NCBI GenBank assembly: GCA_020831765.1
Contig: JAFIFY010000073.1
Span: 1-64,000 of the forward strand
DNA: 64,000 bases
Direction: 5' to 3'
From: Phycisphaeraceae bacterium
GTDB lineage: Bacteria; Planctomycetota; Phycisphaerae; Phycisphaerales; Phycisphaeraceae
Shown: positions 4,076 to 59,791 of the stretch, piece by piece
Layout: the number at the start of each line of letters is the position of its first letter
Numbering within the stretch: the stretch's first letter is position 1
The notes under the pieces: generated by a model
The model's input: the letters and a program-made list of their open reading frames with translations, nothing else
Database searches by the model: none
Told to the model about the DNA's origin: nothing
Program-made: the position numbers and the translations under genes

Positions 4076-4729
4076 TCACCGCATGGCATCGATGTCCAGG
4101 CCGAAGGCTTCCTGGATCGCCCGGCCAAGAACCTGCTCGAACTGCGCGAAGGTCATATCATCGGTGATGTGCTCTCGCGCCTCGTTGATGGCTTGCGAGA
4201 CCGCATTCAGCATGTCGATGCCCGTGTCACGTGATTCGTCGGCTGGACCGGGCATCATCGAATCCACATCCACTTTCCACCGGTCATCGACCCGGATCAG
4301 GAGATCGGTTTCGCCGAAGTCACCACCCATGCTGGCGCGATCGTCCTCGATCTGGACGGGATGGTCATCGAACCAGGCGCGCGTGGTGGGGAAATCGTAG
4401 GCTACCGGGATGGGCTGCTCATCGAGCGAGGCAAGCGCCTCATCGCCCCATCGTCCCTGCACCTCTCGCCGCGTCAGCAGCGAGGCGCGTGCCGTATGGA
4501 AGACCGCTTCGAGCAAAGCCGCATGCTCGGCCGGCTCATGGAACGCGTCCTTGAACCGATCGAGGTCATCTTCCTCGACCGCCAAGTGAATGCTGAGCAG
4601 GGTATTCTCCGGCGTGTCGTAAGTGTAAGTGGTAGGCCCATCGCGCATCTCACACCCCCCGACACCGAGTGTGAAGACGAGTGCCAGCGTCATCAGCGCC
4701 TTCCCCGTGAACAATCCTGCATGCTTCAT
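4076..4729 (-). CDS. putative lipoprotein of unknown function
   Basis: 217 residues from ATG 4729. The start is chosen because it places a typical lipoprotein signal at the N-terminus: MKHAGLF, a hydrophobic run, then a lipobox LGVGGC with Cys26 as the expected lipid-modified residue. The mature part is acidic, with a predicted helical stretch (SIHLAVEEDDLDRFKDAFH) followed by a beta-rich segment ending RVDDRWKVDVDSM. This resembles the small NTF2-like or DUF4878-type lipoproteins that follow a 'PENTLL' start, but I cannot name the family firmly. It should be anchored in a membrane facing the periplasm. It stands alone on the minus strand, just left of the insertion sequence. Confidence 0.75.
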   Translation of the reverse strand: MKHAGLFTGKALMTLALVFTLGVGGCEMRDGPTTYTYDTPENTLLSIHLAVEEDDLDRFKDAFHEPAEHAALLEAVFHTARASLLTRREVQGRWGDEALASLDEQPIPVAYDFPTTRAWFDDHPVQIEDDRASMGGDFGETDLLIRVDDRWKVDVDSMMPGPADESRDTGIDMLNAVSQAINEAREHITDDMTFAQFEQVLGRAIQEAFGLDIDAMR

Positions 4730-4865
4730 AACTCGTGTATCCTGAATCTGAATGAATGAACGCCCCCGTACCATGCGGGCCGCTTAGGGCGCGGTCACAA
4801 ATGGCGTGACCACTTCCGCTCCTACGGCATTGTACGCGGCGTCAGCGTGCCGTTCCATTCGCCGT

Positions 4866-9817: not shown

Positions 9818-9905
9818 ACCGAAGTGCCCCGCCTGCGACATGCAGCAGGTGGCGGTCCCAACGCCATCAGCTATCCCGCCGTCAGATCCAACAGGAGTGA
9901 TGACC

Positions 9906-16133: not shown

Positions 16134-16748
16134 CTAAAGCACGCCCTTGGTGCTGGGAATGCCCGTGCCCGTGAGGGCGACCGCCTGTCTCAAGGCGCGG
16201 CCGAAGGCCTTGAAGATCGCCTCGACCATGTGATGATCGTTCCGTCCATAAGGCGCTTCGATGTGGATCGCCAGTTTTCCTTCGTGGGCCACGGCACGGA
16301 AGAATTCCTCGACGAGCTGCACCTCGAAGGTGCCGATTCTGGCTGATGCGCCGGAGAACTGGGCATGGAACCCGATCGCCGCGCGGCCGCTCAGGTCCAG
16401 GCTCACGCGCGCCAGCGCTTCATCCATCGGCACCGAGGCGAATCCATATCGCTCGATGCCTTTCTTGTCGCCAAGACACTGGGCCAGCGCTGAACCCAGC
16501 ACGATGCCGACATCCTCCACCGTGTGGTGATCATCAATGTGGTAATCGCCCTCGGCATCGATCTCCAGCAACATTCGCCCGTGGCGGGTGATGTGGTTGA
16601 GCATGTGATCAAAGAATCCCACTCCGGTGCTGATCGCCGGTTCATCGGCCGGCGGCTGGTCCAGATCGAGGGTCAGGGTGATGCAGGTTTCGCGGGTGTC
16701 GCGTTTGACCGTGCGTCGGCGGGAAGCAGTGGGGGATGGCTCGCTCAA
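16134..16748 (-). CDS. hisB: imidazoleglycerol-phosphate dehydratase
   Basis: 204 residues, the normal size for the single-function enzyme. It converts imidazoleglycerol phosphate to imidazoleacetol phosphate, the sixth step in histidine synthesis. The paired manganese-binding motifs are intact: FFDHMLNHITRHG and DDHHTVEDVGI in the first half, and the mirrored FDVQL-type and GRNDHHMVEAIFKAFGRAL segment in the second. The start overlaps the end of hisC by 4 bases (ATGA), so the two are translationally coupled and the product of HisB is passed to HisC. Confidence 0.97.
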   Translation of the reverse strand: MSEPSPTASRRRTVKRDTRETCITLTLDLDQPPADEPAISTGVGFFDHMLNHITRHGRMLLEIDAEGDYHIDDHHTVEDVGIVLGSALAQCLGDKKGIERYGFASVPMDEALARVSLDLSGRAAIGFHAQFSGASARIGTFEVQLVEEFFRAVAHEGKLAIHIEAPYGRNDHHMVEAIFKAFGRALRQAVALTGTGIPSTKGVL

Positions 16749-17848
16749 AGGGCGGTTCCTTTCCAGTCGCCGGCATCGAAGGCCGCCAGCAGGGCCTGGT
16801 TCTGTTCGGGCGTGCCGATTGTGATTCTGAGTTTATCCCGTAATCGATCCTCATCGAAATAGCGAACGAGGATATGGTCCTGCCGCAGTCGCTCGAGCAT
16901 CGCGCGTGCCGCGACTTCCGACGGCAGGCTCGCCAGGATGAAATTGCTCTGGCTTGGCTGCACCGGAATGCCGCGCGATTCCAGTTCCCGGCTGATGCGC
17001 TGACGTTCCTCGCGAACCTTCCGCCATGTTTCCCGGGCATACGGCTGATCGGCGAGGGCCGCGGCCGCGGCGCGCTGGGCGATAAAGTCAACGTTGTAGC
17101 TGTCGCGCGCCTTGTGCATGGCCGCGATCAATTCCACGCCGCCCAGCCCGTAGCCGAAACGCAAACCAGCCAGTCCGTAACCTTTGCTCAGCGACCGAAG
17201 GATCAGCACGTTCTCCAGGCCGCCGGGCCGCCGAATCAGATCCAGGGCATTGGAATCGGCGAAATCGACGTAGGCCTCGTCGATCAGCAGCACCCCCGGA
17301 AACCGCTCGGCCAGCAAGCGAAAGTCGCCGCTCGGCCGCATGCGTCCGGAAGGGGCGTGGGGATTGACGATCATCGCCAGACCAGCGCCGCTGTGTACCG
17401 CCTGGTCGATGAAATCGGTCGGCCACTCCAGCGATTCGGTCAGCGGAATCTCAAAGACCGGTGTGTCCTGAATCTCGGCCAGCACGCGGTAGAGGGCGTA
17501 GGTCGGCCGCGATACGACGATGCCGCGCGGCGAGCGGTTATCGGAACCGGCAGGCTCGCAGAACGTTGTAATCGCCAGGCGCAACAGTTCATCGCCGCCG
17601 TTGGTCGCGATCACCTGCCGGGGCTCGAGATCATGCGTCTCGGCGGCCAGAGCGCGAAAAGCCGGCGCATCGGCCGGCGGATACTTGCGAAGGGATTCGG
17701 GGTCCACCGCCCGGATCGCCTCGATCACTTTCGGTGAGGGAGGATAAGGATTTTCATTGGTATTAAGCTTGACCATCGCCGCGTCCACCGGCTGTTCGCC
17801 CGGAACGTAGGCGTTGAGATCGGTGATATTGCGGCGGGTCGGGATCAT
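16745..17848 (-). CDS. hisC: histidinol-phosphate aminotransferase
   Basis: 367 residues. It transfers an amino group from glutamate to imidazoleacetol phosphate, using pyridoxal phosphate. Fold-type I motifs are present: LNTNENPYPPSP at the N-terminus, NPHAPSG, the aspartate in LIDEAYVDF, and the pyridoxal-binding lysine in LRSLSKGYGLAGLRFGY. The order hisC then hisB in a tight pair is a common partial his operon. No other his gene lies in the window. No clear ribosome-binding site precedes ATG 17848. Confidence 0.96.
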   Translation of the reverse strand: MIPTRRNITDLNAYVPGEQPVDAAMVKLNTNENPYPPSPKVIEAIRAVDPESLRKYPPADAPAFRALAAETHDLEPRQVIATNGGDELLRLAITTFCEPAGSDNRSPRGIVVSRPTYALYRVLAEIQDTPVFEIPLTESLEWPTDFIDQAVHSGAGLAMIVNPHAPSGRMRPSGDFRLLAERFPGVLLIDEAYVDFADSNALDLIRRPGGLENVLILRSLSKGYGLAGLRFGYGLGGVELIAAMHKARDSYNVDFIAQRAAAAALADQPYARETWRKVREERQRISRELESRGIPVQPSQSNFILASLPSEVAARAMLERLRQDHILVRYFDEDRLRDKLRITIGTPEQNQALLAAFDAGDWKGTAL

Positions 17849-18041: not shown

Positions 18042-19778
18042 ATGAGATCAAGGCGGAATCCAAAGTGGTGCATCAGCCTGATCGCGATCGCATTCCTTGC
18101 CATCGCATCAATGACCCCGCGCCCCGGCTTCACCGCCCCCGCCCCCGGAAGTAACCCCGCTCCTGGAAGTAGCCTCGGGGGTAACTACGCACTGGCAAGT
18201 CCCTTCCCCGGGTCCGGCATGGTCGCCATCTCGGGAGGTGCGGCGTCGCCTCGAACGATCGATGATGGGCAGCAGGCCACCTTCCGGGCGGCGGTCGCGC
18301 TTCTGGCTGAAGGTCTCCGGCCCGCTCGCGATGGAAGCCACATGGCCGTGATCCAGGCCTTGCGCCACCTGCGGGAACCGCAGCTCGAGCCGCTGATGGA
18401 ACACCTGGCCCAGTCGGCGGACCCGAATCTCCGGGTGCACGGCATCATGGGCCTGGCGGAGCTGAGCGAAGAGGGGGCCATCGATCTGGACCGCGTGCTG
18501 GCGTTCACCCGGCCGGAATGGCAGGTTGAGGTTCTGGGCGCGGCGATGGAATATGGCCTGCTCTCCGATGCCCAGGCATCGATCCTCATGACCATGCCCA
18601 ACGTCGATGATGGGGTCAAGGTGCTGGTGGCCGGCAGCCTCGCCCGTCACGGTGAAGTGGCCGAGCGTGAAGTCCTCAGACGGGCGGCACGAAGCGATCA
18701 CCTGTCCCGTGCCGCCGTGGCCGCGGTCATTCTCCTCCAGATTCAAGACCCCGATGCTCCGGCGATGATGGCGTCGATCGAGAGCCGTGTCGGCGGTCGC
18801 ATGCGCGAGATGATTCAGCAGTTGGCCCTTCGCACGGCGTACCGATTCCGGTTCGACCGGGTGGGTCCGTGGGCGTTGGGCCTGATCGAAGACCCCCAGG
18901 CCGGCATGCCCGTTCGCCTGGCGGCGTTGGAATTGGCCCTGGAGATCGAGCAGGAATCGGCCGGCGATGCCTGGCTGGAATTGTTCGGCCAGACGCCTGA
19001 CCTGGCCAACCAGATGCGCTTGGCCCTGATCGCGCTGCGAACGAGCTCTCGGGGTGATCCGCGGGTGTTCGAGAGGCTCTCGGCCATGGATGAGCCGATG
19101 CTCAGGAAGCTCGGGCGGGCGGGCCACGCGGTGGCCACGGGGGGCGACAGCCTGGCGCCGCTGATCGAACTGGTCGAATCCCGACATCCCCCCTCAATAC
19201 TCTGGATTCAGAAATACGCGGTTGAAGAGGCAAGACCCGAGTTGGGCTTCGCGCTTCTGACGCGCATCATCGAAATGGCCCGCTCGCCGCGCGATGAAGC
19301 CGTGATCGAGCCGGGCCGGGCCATGCGTGTGGACCAGGCCGTCACGGCGGTGGAGTTGCTTCTGATTTGCGATGATGATTCGGCGGTGCGTTACCTTGCC
19401 GATCTGCTCAGGGTTCCGGATCAGGATACGACGCTGGTGGAAGTTGTTCTCGGTGGATTGGTGCGAAGCGGGCGTCAGCGAGCCGCGGAGGTCGTCGAGG
19501 GTTTGGACCCGTGGGATCAATCCACGCTCGATGAGCTGACCGCGATGGTTCGGGGACGCCGGGAGGCGGGCCTGTCAACTGATGACCTTGAGCATCTGGA
19601 CAACGTGATCCGGGGTTCGCGAATCACGCAGAGAACCCTTAGGATTCAGGCGGCCTGCATCTGGCTCAAGCACCAGGGACAACTCCCCGAAGCCTTGGAT
19701 CGGATCAAGACCCACTCACCGGCGTCCATGGAAGGCAGGGATATGCGGGCTAAACGAGTGGGCCGGGCCGGACCCTGA
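18042..19778 (+). CDS. secreted HEAT-repeat-like protein with a repeat-derived insert
   Basis: 578 residues from ATG 18042; the longer open frame before it overlaps hisC and looks non-coding. A signal peptide (WCISLIAIAFLAIAS) is followed at residues 31-45 by a Pro/Gly/Ser stretch (TAPAPGSNPAPGSS) encoded by the G-rich repeat described below. The rest is a long series of helix pairs of the HEAT or ARM kind, for example QALRHLREPQLEPLMEHLAQ and HGIMGLAELSEEGAIDLD. Such proteins bind other proteins in the periplasm or at the surface; the partner is unknown. A possible -10 box TATAAA lies at 17988-17993. The DegT gene starts 2 bases after the stop, so the two are probably one transcript. Confidence 0.8.
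   Translation: MRSRRNPKWCISLIAIAFLAIASMTPRPGFTAPAPGSNPAPGSSLGGNYALASPFPGSGMVAISGGAASPRTIDDGQQATFRAAVALLAEGLRPARDGSHMAVIQALRHLREPQLEPLMEHLAQSADPNLRVHGIMGLAELSEEGAIDLDRVLAFTRPEWQVEVLGAAMEYGLLSDAQASILMTMPNVDDGVKVLVAGSLARHGEVAEREVLRRAARSDHLSRAAVAAVILLQIQDPDAPAMMASIESRVGGRMREMIQQLALRTAYRFRFDRVGPWALGLIEDPQAGMPVRLAALELALEIEQESAGDAWLELFGQTPDLANQMRLALIALRTSSRGDPRVFERLSAMDEPMLRKLGRAGHAVATGGDSLAPLIELVESRHPPSILWIQKYAVEEARPELGFALLTRIIEMARSPRDEAVIEPGRAMRVDQAVTAVELLLICDDDSAVRYLADLLRVPDQDTTLVEVVLGGLVRSGRQRAAEVVEGLDPWDQSTLDELTAMVRGRREAGLSTDDLEHLDNVIRGSRITQRTLRIQAACIWLKHQGQLPEALDRIKTHSPASMEGRDMRAKRVGRAGP
18132..18184 (-). repeat. G-rich short repeat, copy A (inside a coding region)
   Basis: On the minus strand this reads as units of the TTCCGGGGG type. 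The 22 bases 18132-18153 are the exact reverse complement of 57243-57264 inside imuA, and the 23 bases 18138-18160 match 28357-28379. The copy is read in frame in the HEAT-protein gene. Confidence 0.8.
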
Positions 19779-22530: not shown

Positions 22531-25023
22531 TTACTCCCTTGCGCCTTTTTCTTCAAGCAGGCGGATCAGTTCAGGGTTACCGACCTGGCGGGCGACCTGG
22601 AGGGGGGATTGGTCGGCTCGGTTTTTCCTGTTGGGGTTGGCGCCCATGTCCAGGAGCAGGCGGGTGATGGCGGGTTGGTTTCGTGATACGGCGATGAGAA
22701 GCGGGGTTGCGCCGGTGTCGCTTTCGTGATTGAGGTCGGCGCCGACTTCGGCCAGGATTTTGACGATCTCTTCGTGGCCTCGGTCGGCGGCGACCATGAT
22801 GGGGGTGAGCTTGGTGTTGTTCTGGACATCGACGAATGAGCGGGCGCGGATCAGGCGTCGGACGGCATTGATGTGTCCGCCGGCGGCGGCGATGAAGAGG
22901 GCTGATTCCCCGGTGACGGTGGTGCGATCGACGCGTGCCCGTCGTTCGAGGAGGAAGTTGAGGATTTGCTCATCGCCCCGGTCGGCGGCGGCCATGAGGG
23001 GGGTCAGGCCATCGATGCCCGGTTCATCGATCGCCGCGCCGGCTTCGGCGATCATGCGGACCATTTCGATGGGACCGAACCGGATCGCCTCGGTCAGGAG
23101 GCCTCGCCGACGGTTGTTGACCGCATCGGCCTTGTGCCCGGCCTCGAGCAGCATCTGTACCGTCCGGGTATCGCCGGAACTGACGGCATGGAACAGGGCG
23201 GTATTGCCGTCGAGATCGGACTGGTCCGGCCGGGGCGGTGGCGATTGACCGAGCAACAGGCGGACGACATCGTTGTGACCGCCGCGCGCGGCGTGCATGA
23301 GGGGCGTTACGCCGATGTCATCCGGTTCATGGATGTCGGCATTGCGTTCAAGCAGCAGACGGACGACGTCGGTATGCCCGGCCTGCGCGGCGACGCTCAG
23401 CGCCGAAGCGCCCTGGCGTGCGCGATCTTCGACATTGGCACCGGCTTCGAGCAGGCGACGGACAATGGCGACATTGCCCGATTGCGCCGCCGGAAGCAAC
23501 GGCGTCACGCGGTCATTATCACGGCGATCGACCCGTGCGCCTTTTTCCAGCAATAGCCGCACCGTCCGCTCATCACCACTGCGCGCGGCAAAGTGCAGGG
23601 GTGTGGTTCCATTGCGTGAGACGTGGTCGGCCGCGGCGCCGGCTTCGAGCAGACGCTCGACGGTGGCCGCCTGGCCGGTGAGCGCGGCCAGCATCAGCGG
23701 TGTCACGCCGGCCTCGTTGGCGACATCCGGCGATGCGCCATGCCGCAGCAGCAGCGCGGCCAGTTCCGGGCGGCCGGACGCGGCGGCGAGCAGGGCGGTG
23801 GTGCCGTCGGTTCGGCGGTGTCCGACCTCGGCCCCGGCCTCCAGCAGCGCCCGAAGCACCTCGGCATGGCCGGCCTCGGCGGCGCGGATCAGGGCGTGAT
23901 GGCCCAGCGGGCTCTGGTGATTCACATTGGCGCCCAGCGCCAGCAGGCGCGAAACGATGGCCGCATCGCCATGTCGAGCCGCCATCAGCAGCGGCGTGAT
24001 TCCGAAGTGGTCCGCCCGGTTGACCGTCTGGCGGGTCGGGTTCTCCCACCAGATGGAAGGCTCGGCTTCATCCACCCATGCGCGCCGGCCCGGACCATCA
24101 AGCGTCCAGGTGATCCGGCTCAAGGGCACCTGCCCGATCAGACCGGTCATCTCCCGCTCCTGGCCGGGTTCAGGCCCGCGGGGCGGATCGCGCAGCTCGA
24201 ATCGAACCTGCAAGTCGGCGAATGGCCTGCCCAGCACCGTCACCCTCGAAACGTTGCCGACCATGAGCCAGACATTGACCTGATCCCTTGACGGGCCAAG
24301 ACGACGAAGCGAATCCTCGCGGAACGATTCCGGAGCACGGGCATGCCAGAACTCGGGCACGCGCATCGATTCGTTCCGCGAGGTTTCGATACGCAGACGC
24401 AGTTGTCGATCGGTGCCCGCGAACCGGCCACGGATATACACGCCGCTGTCGTCGATTTCGACTTCCTCGGCGTTATCGGGAGCATTGATGTGGGCCGGAT
24501 CGTGCAGCACCACCCGGCGCGCGGCGAAGTCGAACGTCGTTGTCAGTTGCCCGAGAATGTCCATGCCCAGGATGCCATCAATGGCCACCCCGGTTGATTC
24601 AGCGAAGTGGGAAAGGTCCGTGGCGAGGATGAAGCGAGGGGTCATGTCGACCGACCCGATCGAGAGCTTCTCGACCCCCCGGCTCTGCACGCGCGATTGC
24701 CTTCCGCCCACCACCGCGTGGCCCTGGCCGAGTACGGGCAGGTCCATTCGAATCGCGGTCGGGGCGTTGACCATGGTGAACCGCGTCGCGGTATCGACCA
24801 GAAAATGGCCGGCATCGCGTCCGTTGATGCTGACCGGCACGAGCAGGACCACATCGCCGGTCCGGGCTTCGACCGCCACGCGGCGCTGTCCATCGGGGAA
24901 GCGCACCGTCGTTGAGGCGTGTGCCAGGTTTGGCAGGCAGGCGGCCAGAACCATCGCCACGGCAAGCAGATGGGCGAAGACGCCCCTGGGGCTGAACGTT
25001 GCGGGCCTGGTCAGTTCCATCAT
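22531..25023 (-). CDS. secreted aspartyl-protease-like and ankyrin-repeat fusion protein
   Basis: 830 residues. The start (ATG 25023 or 25020) has AGGAGA 5-8 bases before it. Residues 1-36 form a signal peptide. Residues about 55-180 match the bacterial retropepsin-like aspartyl protease domain: HFLVDTATRFTMV (Asp-Thr-Ala in place of the usual Asp-Thr-Gly) and the flap-end motif GILGMDILGQLTT. Residues about 340-825 hold 15 ankyrin repeats of 33 residues (GTTPLHFAARSGDERTVRLLLEKGA is a model unit, here split by its family pattern). Ankyrins bind proteins; the domain order suggests a periplasmic or surface protease targeted by the ankyrin tail (inference). The Ala in the active-site triplet may lower activity. 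Confidence 0.85.
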   Translation of the reverse strand: MMELTRPATFSPRGVFAHLLAVAMVLAACLPNLAHASTTVRFPDGQRRVAVEARTGDVVLLVPVSINGRDAGHFLVDTATRFTMVNAPTAIRMDLPVLGQGHAVVGGRQSRVQSRGVEKLSIGSVDMTPRFILATDLSHFAESTGVAIDGILGMDILGQLTTTFDFAARRVVLHDPAHINAPDNAEEVEIDDSGVYIRGRFAGTDRQLRLRIETSRNESMRVPEFWHARAPESFREDSLRRLGPSRDQVNVWLMVGNVSRVTVLGRPFADLQVRFELRDPPRGPEPGQEREMTGLIGQVPLSRITWTLDGPGRRAWVDEAEPSIWWENPTRQTVNRADHFGITPLLMAARHGDAAIVSRLLALGANVNHQSPLGHHALIRAAEAGHAEVLRALLEAGAEVGHRRTDGTTALLAAASGRPELAALLLRHGASPDVANEAGVTPLMLAALTGQAATVERLLEAGAAADHVSRNGTTPLHFAARSGDERTVRLLLEKGARVDRRDNDRVTPLLPAAQSGNVAIVRRLLEAGANVEDRARQGASALSVAAQAGHTDVVRLLLERNADIHEPDDIGVTPLMHAARGGHNDVVRLLLGQSPPPRPDQSDLDGNTALFHAVSSGDTRTVQMLLEAGHKADAVNNRRRGLLTEAIRFGPIEMVRMIAEAGAAIDEPGIDGLTPLMAAADRGDEQILNFLLERRARVDRTTVTGESALFIAAAGGHINAVRRLIRARSFVDVQNNTKLTPIMVAADRGHEEIVKILAEVGADLNHESDTGATPLLIAVSRNQPAITRLLLDMGANPNRKNRADQSPLQVARQVGNPELIRLLEEKGARE

Positions 25024-25379
25024 TCAAGTCTCCTGGGTATCGAAGCGCCCTGGTTCCCGGTTTCCGGGGGCGAACCCTTCGAGTGATCCACGGGGGAAGT
25101 TTTACATTGAGCCGGTCCGCGCGGCGGTTGAATGGCAATCGGGGCACGGGTGGGGCCGATCCGCGATTGTACCCTTAACCCGTGGCGATTCGGAGCATTG
25201 CACGGCTGCCGGGGTTGCAGTCGTGCCCGGGGGATCGGCCGGCGATGGAGGCGGGGCGGCCGAAGGCCGACTGGGCGGGGGCTGAATGTGCTACGATGGG
25301 CCGCGTGTGGATGCATGAATCGTATCGTTCTGCCGGATCGCGATCGCATGAGACTTCTTAAACCGCTCACGGATGGGCC
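25024..25379. other. divergent promoter region
   Basis: The 356 bases between the ankyrin gene (minus strand) and the topoisomerase gene (plus strand) should hold both promoters; none is clear enough to mark. A single TTTCCGGGGGCG at 25066-25077 resembles one unit of the G-rich repeat family. Confidence 0.35.
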
Positions 25380-28326: not shown

Positions 28327-28392
28327 TTCCCGGAATTCCGTCAGGGGGTTCCGCGGGCGGGGTTACTTCCGGGGGCGGGTTCCGGGGGTGGG
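28327..28392 (+). repeat. G-rich short repeat, copy B
   Basis: Units TTCCGTCAGGGGG, TTCCGCGGGCGGGG, TTACTTCCGGGGGCGGG and TTCCGGGGGTGGG in a row. Bases 28357-28379 match 18138-18160 exactly in reverse complement. It lies just before the ATG at 28404, so it falls in the leader of the sigma-like gene, or its N-terminus if an upstream start is used. Confidence 0.8.
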
Positions 28393-30276: not shown

Positions 30277-31131
30277 ATGGCATCGCTGGTTAATGATCTG
30301 ATCGAGGCGGGGATTCATTTTGGTCATCGCTCGACCAACTGGAATCCGAAAATGGGTCCGTACATTTTCGGCAAGCGGAACAGGATTCACATTATCAATG
30401 TGCAGGAGACGATCAAAGGGCTCCTGTTGGCGCGCAAGTTCGTGGCCAAGGTGGTGGCCGGCGGCAAGGATGTGCTCTTTGTCGGCACCAAGCGCCAGGC
30501 TCGGGCGTGCATCGAACAGCACGTCGGCGCGACCGGCATGCCCTACGTCACCGAACGCTGGCTCGGCGGCACGCTGACCAACTTCCGCACCATCCGCGAT
30601 CGACTCAAGCGGCTGGAAGAGCTCGAGAAGCTCGAAGAGACCGGCGAGATCAACAGCTATTCGAAGAAGATGGAAAGCCAGTTGCAGCGGGAGAAATCCA
30701 AGATTCTGCGCAACCTCGGCGGCATCCGCACGATGAACACGCTGCCCGGTGCGATGGTGGTGGTCGATGTGCGTCGCGAGATGAACGCGTTGCGCGAGGC
30801 GCGTAAGCTGGGCATCCCGACGGTGTGCCTGATCGACACCGACAGTGATCCGGACATGGCCGACATTCCGATCCCCGGCAACGATGATGCGATGCGGGCG
30901 ATCGAGGTGGTCATTCAGAGTCTTTGCGCGGCGGTGATGGAAGGCAAGAGCGGTCGCCAGGCGGCGCGTGAAGGCGCTGGCGAGGATGAATCGCGCGGTG
31001 AGGCCGCGCCGCGTCGCCGCAGCCGCGCACGCTTCCGCGCTGATGATGCCGCGCCGGCCGCCGAATCGGCCGAAACCGCCGCCGAAGCGCCAAGCGAGCA
31101 GGTATCAAGCTCCGCGCCGATCCAGGATTGA
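30277..31131 (+). CDS. rpsB: 30S ribosomal protein S2
   Basis: 284 residues. It binds the head-body junction of the small subunit and helps recruit S1. The family motifs are clear: MASLVNDLIEAGIHFGH, WNPKMGPYIFGKRNRIHIIN, FVGTKRQA, ERWLGGTLTNFRTI and the C-terminal IPIPGNDDAMRAIE. The last 55 residues form an Ala/Arg/Glu-rich tail beyond the usual end, a common variable extension. The ATG has AAGGAG 6 bases upstream. It is followed by tsf as in most bacteria, but the gap of 277 bases is unusually long and contains G-rich repeats. Confidence 0.97.
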   Translation: MASLVNDLIEAGIHFGHRSTNWNPKMGPYIFGKRNRIHIINVQETIKGLLLARKFVAKVVAGGKDVLFVGTKRQARACIEQHVGATGMPYVTERWLGGTLTNFRTIRDRLKRLEELEKLEETGEINSYSKKMESQLQREKSKILRNLGGIRTMNTLPGAMVVVDVRREMNALREARKLGIPTVCLIDTDSDPDMADIPIPGNDDAMRAIEVVIQSLCAAVMEGKSGRQAAREGAGEDESRGEAAPRRRSRARFRADDAAPAAESAETAAEAPSEQVSSSAPIQD

Positions 31132-31172: not shown

Positions 31173-31197
31173 GCCCCCGGACCCCGGACCCCGGAAG
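31173..31197 (-). repeat. G-rich repeat, short diverged copy F
   Basis: On the minus strand, CTTCCGGGGTCCGGGGTCCG followed by GGGGC, a variant of the G-run units seen elsewhere in the window, within the rpsB-tsf gap. Confidence 0.45.
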
Positions 31198-31315: not shown

Positions 31316-31360
31316 TCAGGGGGTTCCAGGGTGGACTTCAGGGGGTTCCGGGGGGCGGGG
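31316..31360 (+). repeat. G-rich short repeat, copy C
   Basis: TTCTCAGGGGGTTCCAGGG, then a GGACTTCAGGGGG unit and TTCCGGGGGGCGGGG. Four G-runs within 45 bases could form a G-quadruplex in the rpsB-tsf spacer, 50 bases before the tsf start. Confidence 0.65.
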
Positions 31361-31408
31361 CGTCTCTTACCCCATAAGCAATCAGAACCGATATTGGAGA
31401 CTTCATCG

Positions 31409-32224
31409 ATGAGTATCAGCGCGAAGGATGTAATGGCCCTGCGGCAGCGAACGGGGCTGGGCATGATGGAATGCAAGAAGGCGCTCTCGGACACCGACGG
31501 CGACGTTGACGCGGCCATCAAGCTGCTGCGTGAGCAACTGGGCAGCAAGATGCAGGAGCGTTCCGGCCGGGAGGCGATGGAAGGCGCGGTCGCCGCGGCC
31601 CGGCGTGATGGGGCGGTCAGTCTGGTTCAGTTGGTCAGCGAGACGGATTTTGCCGCGCGTAACGATGGCTTCGTCGCCGCGGCGCAGAAGATCGCCGAGT
31701 TGGCGCTGGATGGTCCGGACGGTGAACACACCGAAGGCACCGCCGCCATGAATGACCTGGTCGAGGGTCTACGCATCACCATCAAGGAAAACATCACGCT
31801 TCGCCGCTTCGTGAAGCTTTCAGCGCCCAAGGTTGGCAGTTATGTTCATCACAACCGCAAGCTGGGCGCGATCATCGGCGCTGAGGGCGACCTGAGCGAC
31901 GATCTGCTGATGGGCCTTTGCCAGCATGTCACCGCCGCCGTGCCACCGCTGATGCCCGCGCCCGAGGCGATCGATGCCGACGGCCTGGACCCGGCGAAGG
32001 TCGAGGCCGCCCGTGCCGAGTTCACCCAGGAAGCCGCCGATTCCGGCAAGCCGCCCCAGATCGTCGAGAAGATCGTCGAGGGCAAGCTGAGCAAGTGGAA
32101 GGATGAACGCGTTCTGATGGGCCAGGTCTATGTCCGCGAGCTGGATGCCAGGAAGCCGGTGCGGGATTACATCCCCAAGGGTGCCAGGGTCACCCACATG
32201 CTGCGGTATTCGTTGACCGATTGA
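31409..32224 (+). CDS. tsf: translation elongation factor Ts
   Basis: 271 residues from ATG 31409, with GGAGA 8 bases before it; the open frame that continues upstream is not conserved. EF-Ts exchanges GDP for GTP on EF-Tu. Motifs: the N-terminal UBA-like domain (VMALRQRTGLGMMECKKAL with DVDAAIKLLRE), the TDFVA-like segment SETDFAARNDGF, and the C-terminal VYVRELDARKPVRDYI. Size and domain order are normal. It forms the second gene of the rpsB-tsf unit and is closed by a strong terminator. Confidence 0.97.
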   Translation: MSISAKDVMALRQRTGLGMMECKKALSDTDGDVDAAIKLLREQLGSKMQERSGREAMEGAVAAARRDGAVSLVQLVSETDFAARNDGFVAAAQKIAELALDGPDGEHTEGTAAMNDLVEGLRITIKENITLRRFVKLSAPKVGSYVHHNRKLGAIIGAEGDLSDDLLMGLCQHVTAAVPPLMPAPEAIDADGLDPAKVEAARAEFTQEAADSGKPPQIVEKIVEGKLSKWKDERVLMGQVYVRELDARKPVRDYIPKGARVTHMLRYSLTD

Positions 32225-43075: not shown

Positions 43076-43236
43076 AGGTTCGGCGATGCCGCGTTCCTGT
43101 CCCGGTCCGGTTCGACAAGAGGGGCTGGCGCGTACGGCCGGTTTTGCATGGTGAAAAGGCAAATGCGGGTTACTCCCGCGGGATCGCGTTCCTTCCGGGG
43201 GCTGTGGCAGACGTGTTTGGAATAAGTGAACGACTC

Positions 43237-46260: not shown

Positions 46261-47952
46261 TCAAAGGTCGGTCACACATCCCCGGCTGGCCGGGCCGACC
46301 AGGCGGATGTACTTGGCCAGCGTGCCGCGCTGAGCCTTGTAGGCCGGCATCGTCCAGCTCGCCTTGCGCGCCGCCATTTCCTTTTCATCCACGGCGATAT
46401 CGATCGAGCGATTCGAGGCATCGATGATCACCCGGTCGCCATCGTGCACCAGTGCGATCGGCCCGCCTTCCTGCGCTTCGGGGCAGACGTGCCCGATGAT
46501 GAATCCGTGCGAGCCGCCACTGAACCGACCATCGGTGATCAGTGCAACATCATTGCCCAGGCCCGCGCCCATGATCGCGCTGGTGGGGGTGAGCATCTCA
46601 GGCATGCCCGGCCCGCCCTTGGGCCCTTCGTAGCGGATGATGATCACATCACCCTTGCCGATCCGGCCCTGTTCCAGCGCCTCGAGCATCAGTTCCTCAC
46701 TATCAAAGCACTTGGCCGTTCCCTCGAATCGAAGCCCCTCCTTGCCCGTGATCTTGGCCACCGCGCCTTCCGGGGCGAGGTTGCCGTAGAGGATCGTGAT
46801 GTGGCCCTTGGGCTTGATCGGCTTATCCAGGGGCGCGACCACATCCTGGCCCTGCTTCAAGGTCGGTGCTGATTCCAGGTTCTCGGCCACGGTCCGCCCG
46901 GTGACGGTCATGCAGTCGCCCTTGAGCATGCCTTCATCCAGCAGCATCTTCATCACCGCCGGAATGCCGCCGACGTTGTGCAGGTCTTCCATCACATACC
47001 GCCCCGACGGCTTGAGATCGGCCAGGAAAGGAACCTTGTCGGCCACCACCTGGAAATCATCGAGTGAGAGTCGCACATCCACCGCATCGGCCATGGCCAG
47101 CAGGTGCAGCACCGCGTTGGTCGAACCGCCCAGCACCATGACCACCACCATGGCGTTGTGGAACGCATCGCGCGTCATGATGTCGCGGGGCTTGAGGTCC
47201 ATCTCCAGGAGATTGCGGATCGCCTGGCCGGCCATCCGGCATTCTTCGATCTTCAGCGGGTCCACCGCGGGTGTCGAGCTGGAGCCGGGCAGGCTCATGC
47301 CCATGGCCTCGATCGCGCTGGCCATGGTGTTGGCGGTGTACATGCCGCCGCAAGCGCCAGGGCCGGGTATGCTCCGGCGCACGATCTGGCACCGCTGCTC
47401 CTCGGTGATGCGGCCGGCCAGGGCCTCGCCGTAACACTGGAACGCCGAGACAATGTCCAGCGGCTGGTCCTTGCCGCCATCCTTCATGCAGCCGGGCTTG
47501 ATGGTCCCGCCGTAGATCATCAGGCCCGGACGGTTGACCCGTGCCATGCCCATGATGCAGCCGGGCATGTTCTTATCGCAGCCCGGCAGCGTGATGCAGG
47601 CGTCGTACCACTGCGCGGCCATGACCGTCTCGATCGAATCGGCGATCAGGTCGCGCGATTGCAGCGAAAACGACATGCCGCTGGTGCCCATCGAAATGCC
47701 GTCCGAGACGCCGATGGTGTTGAACCGCAGCCCCACGAGCCCCGCCTCGACCACACCCCGACGAACTTCACCGGCAAGGTCCAGCAGGTGCATGTTGCAT
47801 GTGTTGCCCTCGTACCAGCACGAGGCGATGCCGATCTGAGGCTTGTTCATATCCTCTTCGGTCAGACCCGCGCCGTAAAGCATGGCCTGACTGGCCCCCT
47901 GGCTGCGGGGCTGGGTGATCCGGCAACTGATGCGATTGAGTGAATCGGGCAT
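46261..47952 (-). CDS. ilvD: dihydroxy-acid dehydratase
   Basis: 563 residues. It dehydrates 2,3-dihydroxy-isovalerate and -methylvalerate in the last common step to valine and isoleucine, using an iron-sulfur cluster. The cluster cysteines are visible in [23 protein letters not shown] and [13 protein letters not shown]; the substrate segment SFSLQSRDL and the C-terminal [11 protein letters not shown] are intact. The leader upstream contains the largest copy of the G-rich repeat, so control of ilvD may involve it (inference). The other ilv genes are elsewhere. Confidence 0.97.
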
Positions 47953-47993: not shown

Positions 47994-48071
47994 TTCCGGA
48001 GGCGAGGCCGGGGTTATTTCCGGGGGTACTTCCGGGGGCGGTTCCGGGGGTACTTCCGGGGGGGGCGGGGG
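47994..48071 (+). repeat. G-rich short repeat, copy D (largest)
   Basis: Two identical 21-base blocks, 48018-48038 and 48042-48062, each made of TTCCGGGGGTAC plus TTCCGGGGG, with diverged units before them (TTCCGGAGGCGAGG, GGGGTTATTTCC) and a run of eight G after them. It lies 42 bases upstream of the ilvD start, so the ilvD leader RNA would contain the C-rich strand. Confidence 0.88.
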
Positions 48072-48466: not shown

Positions 48467-49159
48467 ATGATCAAGGCGATGATCTTCGATTTCGATGGCG
48501 TGCTGGTGGATTCCGAGCCCCTGCATTTTCAGGCGTTTCTTGATGTGCTCGGGCCATTGGGCGTGGAGTTCGATTATGATGAATATCTGCGCACTTACCT
48601 GGGCTTCGATGACCGCGATGCACTGACTCATGCGGTGCGGGCGCATCGCGGCGATTGGCCGGAGTCGTTGGACCTGGCAGCGCTGTGTCGGAGCAAGCAG
48701 GAGGCTTTTGAAGCGATCATCGCCCGGGGCATCGACCCGATTCCGGGGGCGGAGGAACTGGTTGCGCGCATCAGCAGTGTCATGCCCGTGGCCATCGCCA
48801 GCGGGGCGACCCGTCGCGATATCCAGCTCATCCTCGGCGGCCTGATGCCGGATCATCCCTTCGATCCGATTGTCAGCGCTGATGATGTGGAACAGTCCAA
48901 GCCGCATCCGGCGACTTACCAGCAAGCCGCCGAGGGTCTGAGCCGACGCGCAGGTGGTGCGGGCCCAATCCGCCCGGGCCAGATCGTGGCCATCGAGGAC
49001 ACCGCCGCCGGCATCGAATCCGCCCGGGCGGCGGGGCTCTGGACGCTGGGCGTGCTGACCACCTCGCCTCGATCCGCGCTCCACCGCGCCCATCGAATCA
49101 TCGAGGACTACGCCGAGGTAACCCCCGAGCATCTTGCGCGCTGGTTCGGGGCGGATTAG
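48467..49159 (+). CDS. HAD-superfamily hydrolase (phosphoglucomutase/phosphatase type)
   Basis: 230 residues. Motif I FDFDGVLVDSEP holds the nucleophile Asp and acid-base Asp; motif II is IASGATRRD, motif III the Lys in SADDVEQSKPHP and motif IV AIEDTAAGIESARAAG. The cap is helical (subclass I). Such enzymes act as beta-phosphoglucomutases or small phosphatases on sugar phosphates; which one is not evident. Cytoplasmic; gene stands alone on the plus strand. Confidence 0.93.
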   Translation: MIKAMIFDFDGVLVDSEPLHFQAFLDVLGPLGVEFDYDEYLRTYLGFDDRDALTHAVRAHRGDWPESLDLAALCRSKQEAFEAIIARGIDPIPGAEELVARISSVMPVAIASGATRRDIQLILGGLMPDHPFDPIVSADDVEQSKPHPATYQQAAEGLSRRAGGAGPIRPGQIVAIEDTAAGIESARAAGLWTLGVLTTSPRSALHRAHRIIEDYAEVTPEHLARWFGAD

Positions 49160-53116: not shown

Positions 53117-53370
53117 CACGCGATTTCCTCTGGTGTTGTTGGACCCTGATACGACCTCGCTCCGCCCGGAAAATTTAGGCGGAAGACCGCCGACATGCAA
53201 CCCAAGCCGGAAGCGCGGCGATTCCGACCCGCCGCCCGGGCGGGTTCCGTGGCGATGTTTCGGGGGGCGTGAACTTGCTCCGTCCGATTGCGCGATGGAT
53301 GATGTTCGCCGATCGACACGCCGCCGCGCTTCGGTGGTGGTCGAGATGTTCACGGAGGATGGTGACCTTC

Positions 53371-54690
53371 ATGATTGACCTCCATCAAGGCAATTCGTTC
53401 TACTGGCGGATCGATGGCCGGCCTCGGCTGCTGCTGGGCGGCAGCATCGAGGACAACCTCTTTCAGATTCCCGACCTTGAAGAACACCTGGACCTCCTGG
53501 TCTCGGTCGGCGGCGATTACGTGCGCGGCACGATCTCCAGCCGCGATGAAGGCAACGTCTGGCCCCATGCCCGGACCGACCCGGATGGGCTCTACGACCT
53601 GAACCGCTTCGATCCGGAATACTGGCGGCGGTTTGATCGGTTCATTGACCTGACCGAAGCGCGGAAGATTGTCGTGCAGATCGAAATCTGGGATCGCTTC
53701 GATTATGCCCGCCAGCCGTGGGAAGAAAACCCCTTCAACCCCCGGAACAACATCAACTACACCGCCGAGGGAAGCGGCCTGAAGATGCGCATCACCAGCC
53801 ATCCGGGCCTGCGGGAGAACGCTTTCTTCCGTTCCATCCCCGCCTGCGAGGATCGGCCGGTGTTGCTCAAATATCAGAAGGCCCTGGTGGACCGCATTCT
53901 CCAGACATCACTGGGCCGGCCCTATGTGCTGTTCTGCATCTCGAACGAGACCAACGAGCCGCCGGCTTGGTCGACCTTCTGGGCCGATTACCTCCACCAG
54001 AAGGCGGGCGAGCGCGGCGTGCCGTTGCACCTGACCGAAATGTGGGACCCCCACGACCTGGCCGACCCGGTCCACGAGGCGACCTGGAAGGACCCTCAGC
54101 GATACACCTTCTGCGATATCTCCCAGAACAACCATCGCCCGGCCCATGACCACTGGAGCAAGGCGGTGGGCTTCCGGAAGAAGATTTTGAAAGAGGGTCC
54201 GCCGCGCCCGATCAACAGTGTGAAGGTCTACGGCTCCAATGCCTACCGATACGGCACCACGCGGGATGCCATCGAGCGGTTCTGGCGCAACATCTTCGCG
54301 GGCCTGGCCGCGGTTCGATTCCATCGGCCGCCCACCGGCCTCGGGCTTGGCGACCTCGCCCAGGCCCATATCCGCAGCGCGCGCATGTTCACCGATCGCA
54401 TGAACCACCTCTTCGCCGCTGAACCGACCATCGATGTGCTGGCCAACCGCAGCTACAACGAAGCCTATGCCCTGGCCTGTCCGGGTCGTGAGTATGCGGT
54501 GTTCTTCCCCGACGGCGGCGATGTGATGCTGGATGTCGAGCCGGGCCGGTACGAGGTCCACTGGATGAAGCTTTCCGAGAGTCGATGGCTCGAACCGTTG
54601 TGCCCGGAGACCACCGACGACCGTATCCACCTGCCCACCCCCGAACCCGAAGGCTACTGGGCCGCGCTCATCCGAACCGTAGCCGGTTAG
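53371..54690 (+). CDS. putative glycoside hydrolase (DUF4038-like barrel), cytoplasmic
   Basis: 439 residues from ATG 53371; GTG 53362 is closer to the GGAGG box at 53354-53358 and could be the true start. It has a TIM-barrel look: YWRIDGRPRLLLGGS at the N-terminus, EIWDRFDYA, LFCISNETNEP (a likely acid/base Glu in the Asn-Glu pair), and CDISQNNHRP. The C-terminal part ends with GRYEVHWMKLSESRW, like the small beta domain of these proteins. Such enzymes cut plant or algal glycans; the substrate is unknown. No signal peptide was found. Confidence 0.7.
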   Translation: MIDLHQGNSFYWRIDGRPRLLLGGSIEDNLFQIPDLEEHLDLLVSVGGDYVRGTISSRDEGNVWPHARTDPDGLYDLNRFDPEYWRRFDRFIDLTEARKIVVQIEIWDRFDYARQPWEENPFNPRNNINYTAEGSGLKMRITSHPGLRENAFFRSIPACEDRPVLLKYQKALVDRILQTSLGRPYVLFCISNETNEPPAWSTFWADYLHQKAGERGVPLHLTEMWDPHDLADPVHEATWKDPQRYTFCDISQNNHRPAHDHWSKAVGFRKKILKEGPPRPINSVKVYGSNAYRYGTTRDAIERFWRNIFAGLAAVRFHRPPTGLGLGDLAQAHIRSARMFTDRMNHLFAAEPTIDVLANRSYNEAYALACPGREYAVFFPDGGDVMLDVEPGRYEVHWMKLSESRWLEPLCPETTDDRIHLPTPEPEGYWAALIRTVAG

Positions 54691-56567: not shown

Positions 56568-57561
56568 CGCAGGCCACCTCCCAGCTCATCTCCGTGATCG
56601 GTCGATGCATCGTCGCGGCCGGCATCGATGTCGAGGGTTCCTTTGGCGCTGCGATCGCGCCGGCCCTTGCCCGGAGAATGGTCAACCGCCATCCGGCGAC
56701 CGGCTCGCCGGGTGCCTCCCTGTTGGATTGCGATGCGTTTGTCTCAGGCCGGGCGATATCGCGGCAGGGGGCGATGAGCCAGCGACTGGCGGCGTGGGAG
56801 ATTTCACCGGCTTCGCTTGGCGGGCGAACCAGCAGCACGGTTCGACCCGCCTGCTGGGCGCGAAGCTGCAAACGCCGTGTGGCCGCGCGGCTGAAGCCAG
56901 CGCCATCGGCGATGACCAGCGCCAGGCCGGGATACTGCAACACCGTCTCCAGCGTCCAGAGCCGATCGGCGACCGTGGCCGGATCGATCCAGAGCGAGAC
57001 GGCCGAAAGATCGGCGTGACCGTGCGCGGCTGAGCGGTCAAGGGCCGGGGGGTAAGGCCAGATCGACCGGCCGATCCACACCAGGCGCACCGCATGCCGG
57101 GCCGGCTCGTGCTCTTCCCGATCCCGTACCGCGCAGCGCGACAGTTCGATCAGCAAGGCGGTCGGCGGCAACCGGCATCCGGGGTGATCCGCGCGGCGGT
57201 CGCGCGGCGGTGAGCTTCCGGCACTTCCGGCACTTCCGGGGGTACTTCCGGGGGCGGGGGCGGTTAGGCCGAGCCATTCATGGAGCACGCCTTGCGCGAT
57301 GCCCCAGCCGGCCAGAAAAGCGGGGCGGAGGGGTGGGCGGCTCTCCTCCCGAGGGGTCGCCTGCTCCAACCGCCGCAAGTTCGCCGCCAGTTCTTGAAGC
57401 GATCCAGCGCGGCCGGTCACCGCAGCCGCTGAACCCTCGCGGCTCGGAGCTTTGTCCGGGCGGTCGGCCGATCGCACGCACTCTGGCCCTGGATGAGGCC
57501 ATGCCTCGACCTGCTGATCAAGCCCCAAACCCACATCCAATCTGGCCGAAAACGGGTGCAC
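56542..57561 (-). CDS. imuA: ImuA-like RecA-fold protein with repeat-derived insert
   Basis: 339 residues from GTG 57561. The part LAANLRRLEQATP, FLAGWGIAQGVLHEWLGL and the RecA-like core (VRLVWIGRSIWPYPPAL, LALVIADGAGFSRAATRRLQL) match ImuA, which helps form the mutasome with ImuB and DnaE2. Residues 100-116 (TAPAPGSTPGSAGSAGSS) come from the G-rich repeat at 57215-57264 and lie in a loop before the nucleotide-binding region. A promoter with its -10 box only 8 bases before the GTG suggests a leaderless transcript. The start could instead be internal. Confidence 0.78.
   Translation of the reverse strand: MHPFSARLDVGLGLDQQVEAWPHPGPECVRSADRPDKAPSREGSAAAVTGRAGSLQELAANLRRLEQATPREESRPPLRPAFLAGWGIAQGVLHEWLGLTAPAPGSTPGSAGSAGSSPPRDRRADHPGCRLPPTALLIELSRCAVRDREEHEPARHAVRLVWIGRSIWPYPPALDRSAAHGHADLSAVSLWIDPATVADRLWTLETVLQYPGLALVIADGAGFSRAATRRLQLRAQQAGRTVLLVRPPSEAGEISHAASRWLIAPCRDIARPETNASQSNREAPGEPVAGWRLTILRARAGAIAAPKEPSTSMPAATMHRPITEMSWEVACDASHDPVD
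57215..57264 (+). repeat. G-rich short repeat, copy E (inside imuA)
   Basis: Three short CTTCCGG units are followed by TTCCGGGGGTACTTCCGGGG and GCGGGGGCGG. Bases 57243-57264 match 18132-18153 exactly in reverse complement. In both genes the strand is C-rich and read in the same frame (Thr-Ala-Pro-Ala-Pro-Gly-Ser). Confidence 0.85.
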
Positions 57562-57598: not shown

Positions 57599-57754
57599 AT
57601 AGCCGTTTCGCCCTTGCGGATCCGCCCTGGGCCCGGACCCACGCCCGGTCGGTAACCGTGGATCGCTGGACATGGCGGTATGCTTGATCGATCGCCATCC
57701 GGCGGGGATGGATGGCTTGGACTGAAAGGACGAGATACAGGAAAGGAGCGACTG

Positions 57755-59791
57755 ATGATCGGCAGAAGGGGCTGGACCGGGGTTGAATCTGCACCGCGAG
57801 AGCCGGCGTATCTGGGCAATGGTCTAATCGGTCTGCGGCCCTCAGTGCGGAACCCGCTGGATGAATACAGCCGCTGCTATGTCTCGGGTCTGGTCGAGCG
57901 CGAGCCGAAGTGGGGCATCACGCAGCTTGCCGAGTTGCCCAATCCCTTTCACATTCTTTTCCGACTCGACCGCCATCCGGCCGGCTTGGATTGTCAGTCC
58001 CAGAGCCTGGATATGGGGACAGGGGTGCTGACCTCGGATCTGGTCGGCACCGATGCGTCGGGCCGAACAGCCGACATTCGGGTTGTGCAGGTGGCTTATC
58101 GCAGCGTTCCTTGCCTTCTGGGCATGCATCTTCGTGTCATTCCCGACCAGACCGGTTCGTTGAGTCTGGAACTGAGGATCGCTCCGCCGCGCAATACCCT
58201 CGTGCAGAGCCGGTGCATGGCATCGGTTCCGGGCGTGCTTGGCGATCCAGGTGATCTGCGGGTGGAGTGGCACTGCCCGGCCACGGGTTCCGCTTGCGGA
58301 ATGCACGCCGTGCCGGTGCTCGATCCGGCAACGCACCCGCCACGCATCGAGGCGATGGCTCACCGTGTTCACGCCCAGGTGGATACGCTTCGGCTTTCCT
58401 GGGCGCGTGCGGAAGCAGGTAAGCCGCTGGAGCTTGACTGGATCGTTGCGCTGGTGAGCAGCCGATATCACCCGCGTCCGCTACTTCAGGCCGGGCGGAT
58501 GGTCAGATGGGCGAGTGCGGCGCGCGGCATTGTTGAACTGAACGATGACCATGCCGAGCAGTGGCGGCGAATCTGGCGTTCGTGTCCAGTGATCGATGGG
58601 GATGATCTGACCCAGGATGCTGTTGAAGGCAGCATGTACCATCTGCACGCATCGATTCACCGATCAAGTCGAACATCGATCGCGCCTTTTGGTCTTTCGA
58701 GCAACGCGTACTACGGCCATGTTTTCTGGGACTGCGAGACCTGGGTCTTTCCCGCGCTGCTTCTGCAGTCGCCCGAGACCGCCCGGAATCTTCTTGAGTT
58801 CCGTCTTTCGGGGTTGGATCAGTCGCGCATGCAAGCGGCGCTGTTCGGATTCGATGGGGCCATGTTCCCATGGGAGGCGATCGACGGTGGCGCGGAGGAC
58901 ACCCCGGCCTGGGCGGCGACGGGCTGCATGGAGCATCATATTACGCCCAATGTGGCGCTGGCGTTCTGGCAATATCAATGCATCACCGGCGACCGGTCGT
59001 TTCTTCACCGCGGCACATGGCCGGTTCTCAGTCAGGTGGCCCGATGGATCGTTTCCCGCGTGGAAAAGACCTCGCGGGGATATGAGATCCGCCACCTGAT
59101 TCCGGCCGATGAATATTCATTTAACATTGATAACTCCACCCACATGAATATGGCGTGTGCTTCTGCGCTTCGCGCGGCAACAGCCTGTGCCGCGCTTGTC
59201 GGTGAGCACGCGCCGGCTTTGTGGAATGAAATCGCCCAAGGGTTGGTGATTCCCCGTGATGAGCGGGGGAACATCCTGCAGCAGGATGGCTGGACGCCCG
59301 AGCACCGATCCAAACAGGCCGATACCATTCTGGCGGTCTATCCGCTGCACGCGATCCACGATCCGGTCGATATCGCCGGAATCCTGCGCGATCATGTACA
59401 GGTGGATGCCGGCCATGCGTGCGCCGCGGCCATGGGTGACCAGATCAATGCCGTTGTCTGTGCCCGGGCCGGAAGGCAGAAGCTGGCCCGGACGGCCTGG
59501 GATCGAGGCTGGAAGCCGTATTGGATCGATGTCTGGTCGATGTATGCCGAGACGGCCAGGCGCGATGCCGGGTGCTTCATCACCGGTTGCGGAGGAATGC
59601 TTCAGGCCATCCTGGCCGGGTTCCCCGGACTTCAACTCGACCTGCCGCAACCGGCGGCTCATCCGGTGGCCTTGCCGCAAGGCTGGAAATCCATCACCTG
59701 CCCACGTCTATGGATCCGTGGGCGGCCGCATTCGCTCAATGCGGCCGCAGGCATGTCCAAGGCCCTGCTGGAGCCGATTGGCGAAGATTGA
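57755..59791 (+). CDS. GH65-family-like glycosidase or phosphorylase
   Basis: 678 residues from ATG 57755, with AAGGAG 6 bases before it. The order of domains fits family GH65: a beta-sandwich (YLGNGLIGLRPSVRNPL), a linker, and an alpha/alpha barrel with YYGHVFWDCETWVFPALL and FPWEAIDGGAEDTP. The likely general acid lies in IPADEYSFNIDNSTHMN, where other members have a Glu. The closest relatives appear to be the glucosylgalactosyl-hydroxylysine glucosidase and trehalose/kojibiose phosphorylase groups; which substrate is used is unclear. No signal peptide, so cytoplasmic. Confidence 0.85.
   Translation: MIGRRGWTGVESAPREPAYLGNGLIGLRPSVRNPLDEYSRCYVSGLVEREPKWGITQLAELPNPFHILFRLDRHPAGLDCQSQSLDMGTGVLTSDLVGTDASGRTADIRVVQVAYRSVPCLLGMHLRVIPDQTGSLSLELRIAPPRNTLVQSRCMASVPGVLGDPGDLRVEWHCPATGSACGMHAVPVLDPATHPPRIEAMAHRVHAQVDTLRLSWARAEAGKPLELDWIVALVSSRYHPRPLLQAGRMVRWASAARGIVELNDDHAEQWRRIWRSCPVIDGDDLTQDAVEGSMYHLHASIHRSSRTSIAPFGLSSNAYYGHVFWDCETWVFPALLLQSPETARNLLEFRLSGLDQSRMQAALFGFDGAMFPWEAIDGGAEDTPAWAATGCMEHHITPNVALAFWQYQCITGDRSFLHRGTWPVLSQVARWIVSRVEKTSRGYEIRHLIPADEYSFNIDNSTHMNMACASALRAATACAALVGEHAPALWNEIAQGLVIPRDERGNILQQDGWTPEHRSKQADTILAVYPLHAIHDPVDIAGILRDHVQVDAGHACAAAMGDQINAVVCARAGRQKLARTAWDRGWKPYWIDVWSMYAETARRDAGCFITGCGGMLQAILAGFPGLQLDLPQPAAHPVALPQGWKSITCPRLWIRGRPHSLNAAAGMSKALLEPIGED

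Follow-up and report, generated by a model that had tools for sequence, protein, structure and literature searches.

The small dispersed repeats (SDR) of cyanobacteria, SDR5 among them, reportedly have units of approximately 20–27 bases and occur at many loci. The heptanucleotide repeats (STRR) of cyanobacteria are short, tandem and degenerate, and form dispersed arrays. Rickettsia palindromic elements are approximately 100–150 bases long and look selfish, with inserts in genes that keep the reading frame. A repeat with a core of nine bases, found in a genome of the Phycisphaeraceae, resembled each of these in part. Like the SDR, it was very short, dispersed, partly tandem and apparently mobile without an encoded transposase, and its relatives offered the occupied and empty sites by which SDR mobility is recognised. 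It differed from the SDR in the length of its unit (9 versus approximately 20 bases, the smallest inserts of a whole core being 9 bases), its presence not only in the host family but also in phages, its occurrence in coding DNA in all frames, its razor-sharp core and the variable bases trailing that core. Short, degenerate tandem arrays were shared with the STRR, but isolated single 9-mers were also inserted inside phage and host genes. Short, frame-keeping inserts in genes were shared with the Rickettsia elements, whereas the 9-mer is non-palindromic and only 9 bases long. An earlier note on this DNA, made from its letters, knew of no named family of this form. Our literature search, which reached mostly non-subscription journals, agreed with this and returned no paper describing such a 9-base insert.

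The window, that is, the whole stretch of DNA analysed (64,000 nucleotides), belongs to a 4.71 Mb draft genome of 193 contigs (98% complete; G000), and genes were called with a simple codon model of our own. Among named organisms, the nearest RpsB matches came from metagenome-assembled genomes assigned to Phycisphaeraceae, Phycisphaerae or Planctomycetota, which places this organism in the Phycisphaerales. The five repeat places and two weak ones listed in the earlier note were all found as described, as was a block shared between two of them: positions 18138–18160 (reverse complement) equal 28357–28379 over 23 bases. The arrays at 47994–48071 and 57215–57264 had 24 bases in common, and those at 18132–18184 and 57215–57264 had 22. 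The repeats were therefore real, but the 12-mer first given as their motif (TTCCGGGGGTAC) occurred only three times in the window; the enriched unit and true repeat core was the 9-mer TTCCGGGGG (= CCCCCGGAA), with varying spacers between units. Consensus information dropped outside the 9-mer. CCCCCGGAA is not self-complementary, so that the unit is not a palindrome, and an Rfam search of the window gave no match. The earlier note had proposed a comparison of motif frequency with the expectation from base composition. The window contained 15 exact copies of TTCCGGGGG on both strands, whereas 100 order-3 simulations averaged 1.14 and never exceeded 6, and the whole genome contained 280 + 255 = 535, versus 11 + 16 = 27 for the reversed-pattern control (TTCCGGGGGYRS: 143 + 126, versus 3 + 4 for its control). 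Across 452 kb of the genome, TTCCGGGGG topped the over-representation among all 9-mers (67 versus 5.6 expected, z 25.8). The core was sharply bounded in sequence space. The exact word CCCCCGGAA was counted 174 times in this genome versus 13.7 expected, whereas all 27 one-mismatch neighbours were near expectation; in G015, another member of the family, the exact word was 22-fold up and its one-mismatch neighbours at most a few-fold. Even in motif-rich phages there was no excess of isolated one-mismatch units, with 108 exact and 98 one-mismatch units and approximately 107 of the latter expected from permuted words.

Copies in the window are listed in Table 1. The first array stands 42 bp from the start of ilvD (46261–47952, minus strand), whose leader reads CCCCCGGAA. 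The gene 3' of 28392 had a helix-turn-helix match and a weak match to sigma-70 region 4, and the array at 31316 lies between rpsB (30277–31131) and tsf (approximately 31403–32224). These positions bear out the earlier placement of copies in the leaders of ilvD and a sigma-like gene and in the rpsB–tsf gap. Two further places had been assigned to the inside of genes, which was not upheld: the array at 18132, between an aminotransferase gene (16745–17848, minus strand) and an ORF at 18219, and that at 57215, in the gap ahead of a GH65-family gene (57680–59791), are intergenic by the simple gene calls, though crossed by long open frames. Elsewhere in the window, positions 22531–25023 encode a protein of 830 aa with ankyrin repeats and, at its N terminus, a retropepsin-like aspartyl protease domain. 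When RNA folding was computed with a G-quadruplex term, the energy was lower for four of the five window places, which is compatible with structure formation without demonstrating it and does not account for single copies on both strands of genes. The role in RNA or DNA structure suggested by the earlier note, quadruplexes included, is at most a possibility: isolated copies in coding DNA, found on both strands and in every frame, speak against a single structural role.

Table 1. Arrays and single copies of the 9-base core in the window.
Feature	Position	Strand	Basis
Array, four exact TTCCGGGGG cores at 48018, 48030, 48042 and 48054, 12-base period	47994–48071	+	sequence
Array, exact cores at 57234 and 57246, after two degenerate ACTTCCGGC units	57215–57264	+	
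Array, exact cores at 28367 and 28380, directly upstream of a helix-turn-helix gene starting at approximately 28404	28327–28392	+	
Array, one exact core at 18142 (minus strand) and degenerate units	18132–18184	-	
Degenerate array, one exact core at 31346, rpsB–tsf gap	31316–31360	+	
Weak degenerate CCCCCGGACCCCGGACCCCGGAAG stretch, rpsB–tsf gap	31173–31197	-	
Single exact core	25062–25070	+	
Single exact core within aminotransferase gene	17293–17301	-	
Single exact core, stretch without called gene	43193–43201	+	
Single exact core within HAD-like hydrolase gene (48467–49159)	48741–48749	+	
Single exact core within called gene (53362–54690, plus strand)	53739–53747	-	

In 1.08 Mb of the genome, 194 cores fell into 130 clusters, of which 84 were single exact cores. 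Although approximately 80% of this sequence was coding according to the simple gene caller, 64 clusters were intergenic and 65 genic. Clusters mostly had one orientation, with mixed orientation in 2 of the 130. Spacing within arrays was mostly 9, 12, 15 or 18 bases; multiples of three made up 23 of 24 genic spacings and 25 of 36 intergenic ones. The arrays were polar: units on the C side were exact and the others progressively degenerate. On the CCCCCGGAA strand, the first unit was usually exact, and mean mismatches increased from 0.25 to 1.14 along the array in this genome. The C-side unit was the better one in 28 cases and the worse in 4, compared to 29 and 9 in G015 and 12 and 1 in phages. 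Since isolated units showed no decay series, the degenerate units of arrays were probably produced degenerate rather than decayed from exact ones. Two tRNA genes in the sample (Gly, L099 6824–6897; Met, L053 19482–19555) had a core within 10 bases downstream of their 3' ends, in opposite core orientations; two genes were too few to use.

High counts were limited to two families of Phycisphaerales, that of this genome (13 to 1641 copies per genome, with 1641 in G015) and a sister family, in which the signal was weaker. Elsewhere the phylum was at background, with almost all of the 294 sampled genomes outside both families near control level. Other words were over-represented in G015 (L110–L129), namely TGCTGTGTGGCACCC, tandem repeats of GTACGGGG and of TTAGGAG, and CCCTGGGCTTT, the last probably terminators. 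Genomes of genus g20 carried other dispersed repeats of approximately 65–75 bases in dozens of copies with 80–98% identity, for example in G064 (contig C23, L359, 6036–6107 and approximately 4707–4771). Copy-dense stretches of the single-contig genome G066 were considered as prophages and rejected as such, the genes there being ordinary metabolic ones; copies in its acetyl-CoA synthetase were mostly natural-looking sequence.

One contig in the bin of the window's genome (C69, L086) was a phage, with a terminase, a head protease, decoration and tail proteins, and contained 20 cores in 13.2 kb versus 0.18 expected. Among 80 IMG/VR relatives of its terminase, loci were either rich (for example, L156 with 30 cores, L151 with 17, L157 with 15 and L130 with 12) or empty, and the terminases of empty loci were just as close as those of rich ones. 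The distribution of rich and empty states on the terminase tree requires seven changes, with at least four of them forced by well-supported branches. Bin membership and the common motif suggest that these phages are linked to this host family. A second phage-like stretch was present in G000 (L054, contig C3 20001–36104, at approximately 8750–9925), and the ParB/methyltransferase gene of L054, related to IMG/VR phage genes, has a core insert (ASGG) relative to those. The viral contig L210 (IMGVR_UViG_3300033489_000019) contained 16 cores, the majority within a tandem array spanning approximately 240 bases (approximately 10357–10596); its composition (35% GC) suggests a different host.

To follow the arrival of the motif, each copy in the rich phages was compared with the best-flanked relative lacking it, with 40 permuted 9-mers as control; the comparison used pairwise gapped BLASTN alignments, often of approximately 65–90% identity, at which gap placement is ambiguous. 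Of the 157 evaluable phage sites, 86 were insertions, 26 were substitutions without a gap and 45 fell into neither class, and insertions were far more frequent than at permuted-word sites (56 of 675; odds ratio 13, p = 5e-36). Insertions were at approximately 60 times the control, while the substitution-type sites were only approximately twice the ~11 per permuted 9-mer, and the excess of the motif is therefore due to insertion. We catalogued 54 clean single-gap phage insertions, with lengths of mostly 9, 12 and 6 bases. Where the gap could be placed around the core, most inserts were either CCCCCGGAA itself or the core extended by at least three bases. Examples, with the insert in brackets, are GTGGCCCCG[CCCCCGGAA]TAGTC (L133 8038 versus L132) and GCCTGA[CCCCCGGAA]CCAGCC (L133 7966 versus L132). 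At one homologous terminase-proximal site, CCCCCGGAA was followed by CTG (L130), CGT (L150) or CAA (L241), and a methyltransferase motif of L130 was changed from GDIWVLGDHRLMCGD to GDPRNGHRLMCGD through a 12-base insert. Lengths other than multiples of three were rare (11, 13, 14), which would follow if inserts within genes are subject to purifying selection. The inserts were in sense (29) and antisense (25) orientation and used all frames, which indicates that the unit works as DNA rather than through an encoded peptide. The 54 clean insertions showed neither target-site duplications nor terminal inverted repeats, in contrast to MITEs and other IS-derived elements. The footprint of a larger element flanked by direct cores was also considered and rejected, as the 20 gaps between 60 and 4000 bp showed no favoured spacing. 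In host contigs of several family members, insertions were found at 8 of 37 core sites versus 5 of 274 control sites (p 1.6e-5), a small set with one site counted twice; a first host test in one genus had given 5 of 17 versus 6 of 251. One host insert had 12 bases and a flank identity of 89% (G065 L386 3911 versus G063 L373). The earlier idea of a small mobile or slipping repeat is thus supported by the short, clean inserts of phage and host DNA, on which the tandem arrays are superimposed, and since the motif appeared at sites without an earlier copy, slippage alone is insufficient.

We consider it fairly probable, from these comparisons of sequences, that CCCCCGGAA/TTCCGGGGG forms the core of a very small insertion element, dispersed within one Phycisphaerales family and copied from a fixed template. 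The comparisons show that new copies arise when the whole 9-mer, or the 9-mer and a few variable bases, is inserted in either orientation and any frame, in phage and host, with no target-site duplication to be seen. Each insert would be copied off one fixed putative template while a broken or nicked end is repaired. The candidate writer would be a telomerase-like templated addition or another enzyme with a short template, after which the end would be rejoined, and the putative template RNA would bear UUCCGGGGG. Selection would purge frame-breaking inserts, leaving multiples of three in genes and arrays enriched between genes, and phages would pick up the motif while replicating in such hosts.

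The sharp core could also mark a selected recognition motif, a Chi-like, uptake-like or self-marking site bound by a host protein, such that DNA lacking it is disadvantaged, phages living in these hosts gain it and insertion is just one route of gain. Like uptake sequences and Chi, the 9-mer is a short exact motif with hundreds of copies, razor-sharp against one-mismatch neighbours, and the near absence of excess one-mismatch forms fits selection, as do close phage relatives that are either rich or empty. Core pairs at homologous positions agreed at 9/9 in 274 cases and at 8/9 in 110, with flanks only 75% identical. Such exact cores amid diverged flanks could reflect selection on the motif or recurrent insertion at tolerated sites. 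Selection alone would, however, be expected to work mostly through point mutation of near-matches, and substitutions were only approximately doubled, compared to approximately 60-fold for insertions. Gain through insertion, polar tandem arrays, intergenic enrichment and extreme contrasts between related genera are unlike uptake sequences or Chi. In G066, the core was on the G-richer strand in 47 of 100 placed copies, a weak test of Chi-like strand bias as GC skew was sampled coarsely. We regard this explanation as unlikely.

Template switching or micro-homology-mediated repair could copy short stretches of arrays already present, without any dedicated machinery, a route we think distinctly doubtful. 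Its independence of a special enzyme is in line with the negative family searches described below, and many inserts adjoin C or CC, which could prime. Copying from existing arrays should, however, also spread the degenerate units and spacers that are common there. Isolated one-mismatch units were not in excess, which favours one fixed template, and the bases after the core differed even at the same site. As a functional 3' element, post-stop arrays, C-rich on the mRNA, would serve as Rho-loading or 3'-end signals. In three pooled genomes, 17 arrays had their C side at most 15 bases past a stop codon, compared to 1 array with the opposite side there (p 1.4e-4), but this covers only 17 of 157 intergenic clusters, with most other copies coding or elsewhere. 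It is a very improbable origin of the repeat, and a 3'-end role of stop-adjacent arrays may be a secondary use. Ordinary GC-rich minisatellites made by replication slippage and coding for Ser-Gly-Gly or Pro-Pro-Glu linkers would account for the tandem spacing and its multiples of three in genes, but are disfavoured by the empty-site alignments, the predominance of single exact cores, the use of all frames and both strands and the recurrence of an identical 9-mer in many genera and their phages, and we give this reading almost no credence.

Candidate enzymes for the templated insertion that we favour were searched for in the family. The profiles RVT_1 (PF00078) and UG17-type RT (PDLC03754) each matched 23 of 51 family genomes, and a reverse transcriptase was rejected as the writer as both profiles missed the copy-rich G015, G016, G027 and G066. 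Ku end joining was rejected with Ku in 1 of 51 genomes, and an IS200/RAYT Y1 transposase with no PF01797 match in the 98% complete G000. The repeat is intergenic in part, dispersed and often right after stop codons like REP, BIME and REPIN elements, but differs from these RAYT-associated elements in having neither a palindrome nor, in this genome, a Y1 transposase. The only reverse transcriptase found in G000 (L096, contig C95, 279–4823) adjoins an FGE-sulfatase-like ORF, an arrangement typical of diversity-generating retroelements; next come an AAA+ ATPase (IetA-like) and a protein with a caspase domain. The contig with this reverse transcriptase contained no exact core. An enzymatic precedent is DRT10, in which a telomerase-like bacterial reverse transcription copies a 9-nt template (Eco3 DRT10) into tandem repeats, whose spacing is imprecise in some systems (PMC12632851). 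Its product is an extrachromosomal single-stranded cDNA and its template is poorly conserved (PMC12632851), whereas the 9-mer is constant across genera and reverse transcriptases are absent from several copy-rich genomes. By analogy, this precedent makes a template-directed writer plausible in principle; on present evidence, DRT10 itself is not the system behind the 9-mer. More tentatively, and as a possibility rather than an expectation, dedicated machinery might carry a short internal template and use it to write the fixed nine bases into DNA ends, in the host and, most densely, in infecting phages. This would be a programmed micro-insertion, possibly in defence or repair, with a telomerase-like step that lacks a recognisable reverse transcriptase.

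Mobile DNA is generally believed to require a unit of sufficient length for its ends to be recognised. If the fixed-template explanation is true, nine bases inserted whole, hundreds of times, into bacterial chromosomes and phage genes would match or undercut the smallest size known for mobile DNA and be among the smallest spreading DNA elements seen, and a templated insertion activity that nobody has described would be implied in these organisms. The model predicts which nine bases appear, and how. The 9-mer may also serve as a sequence tag by which uncultured phages can be assigned to this family of bacteria.
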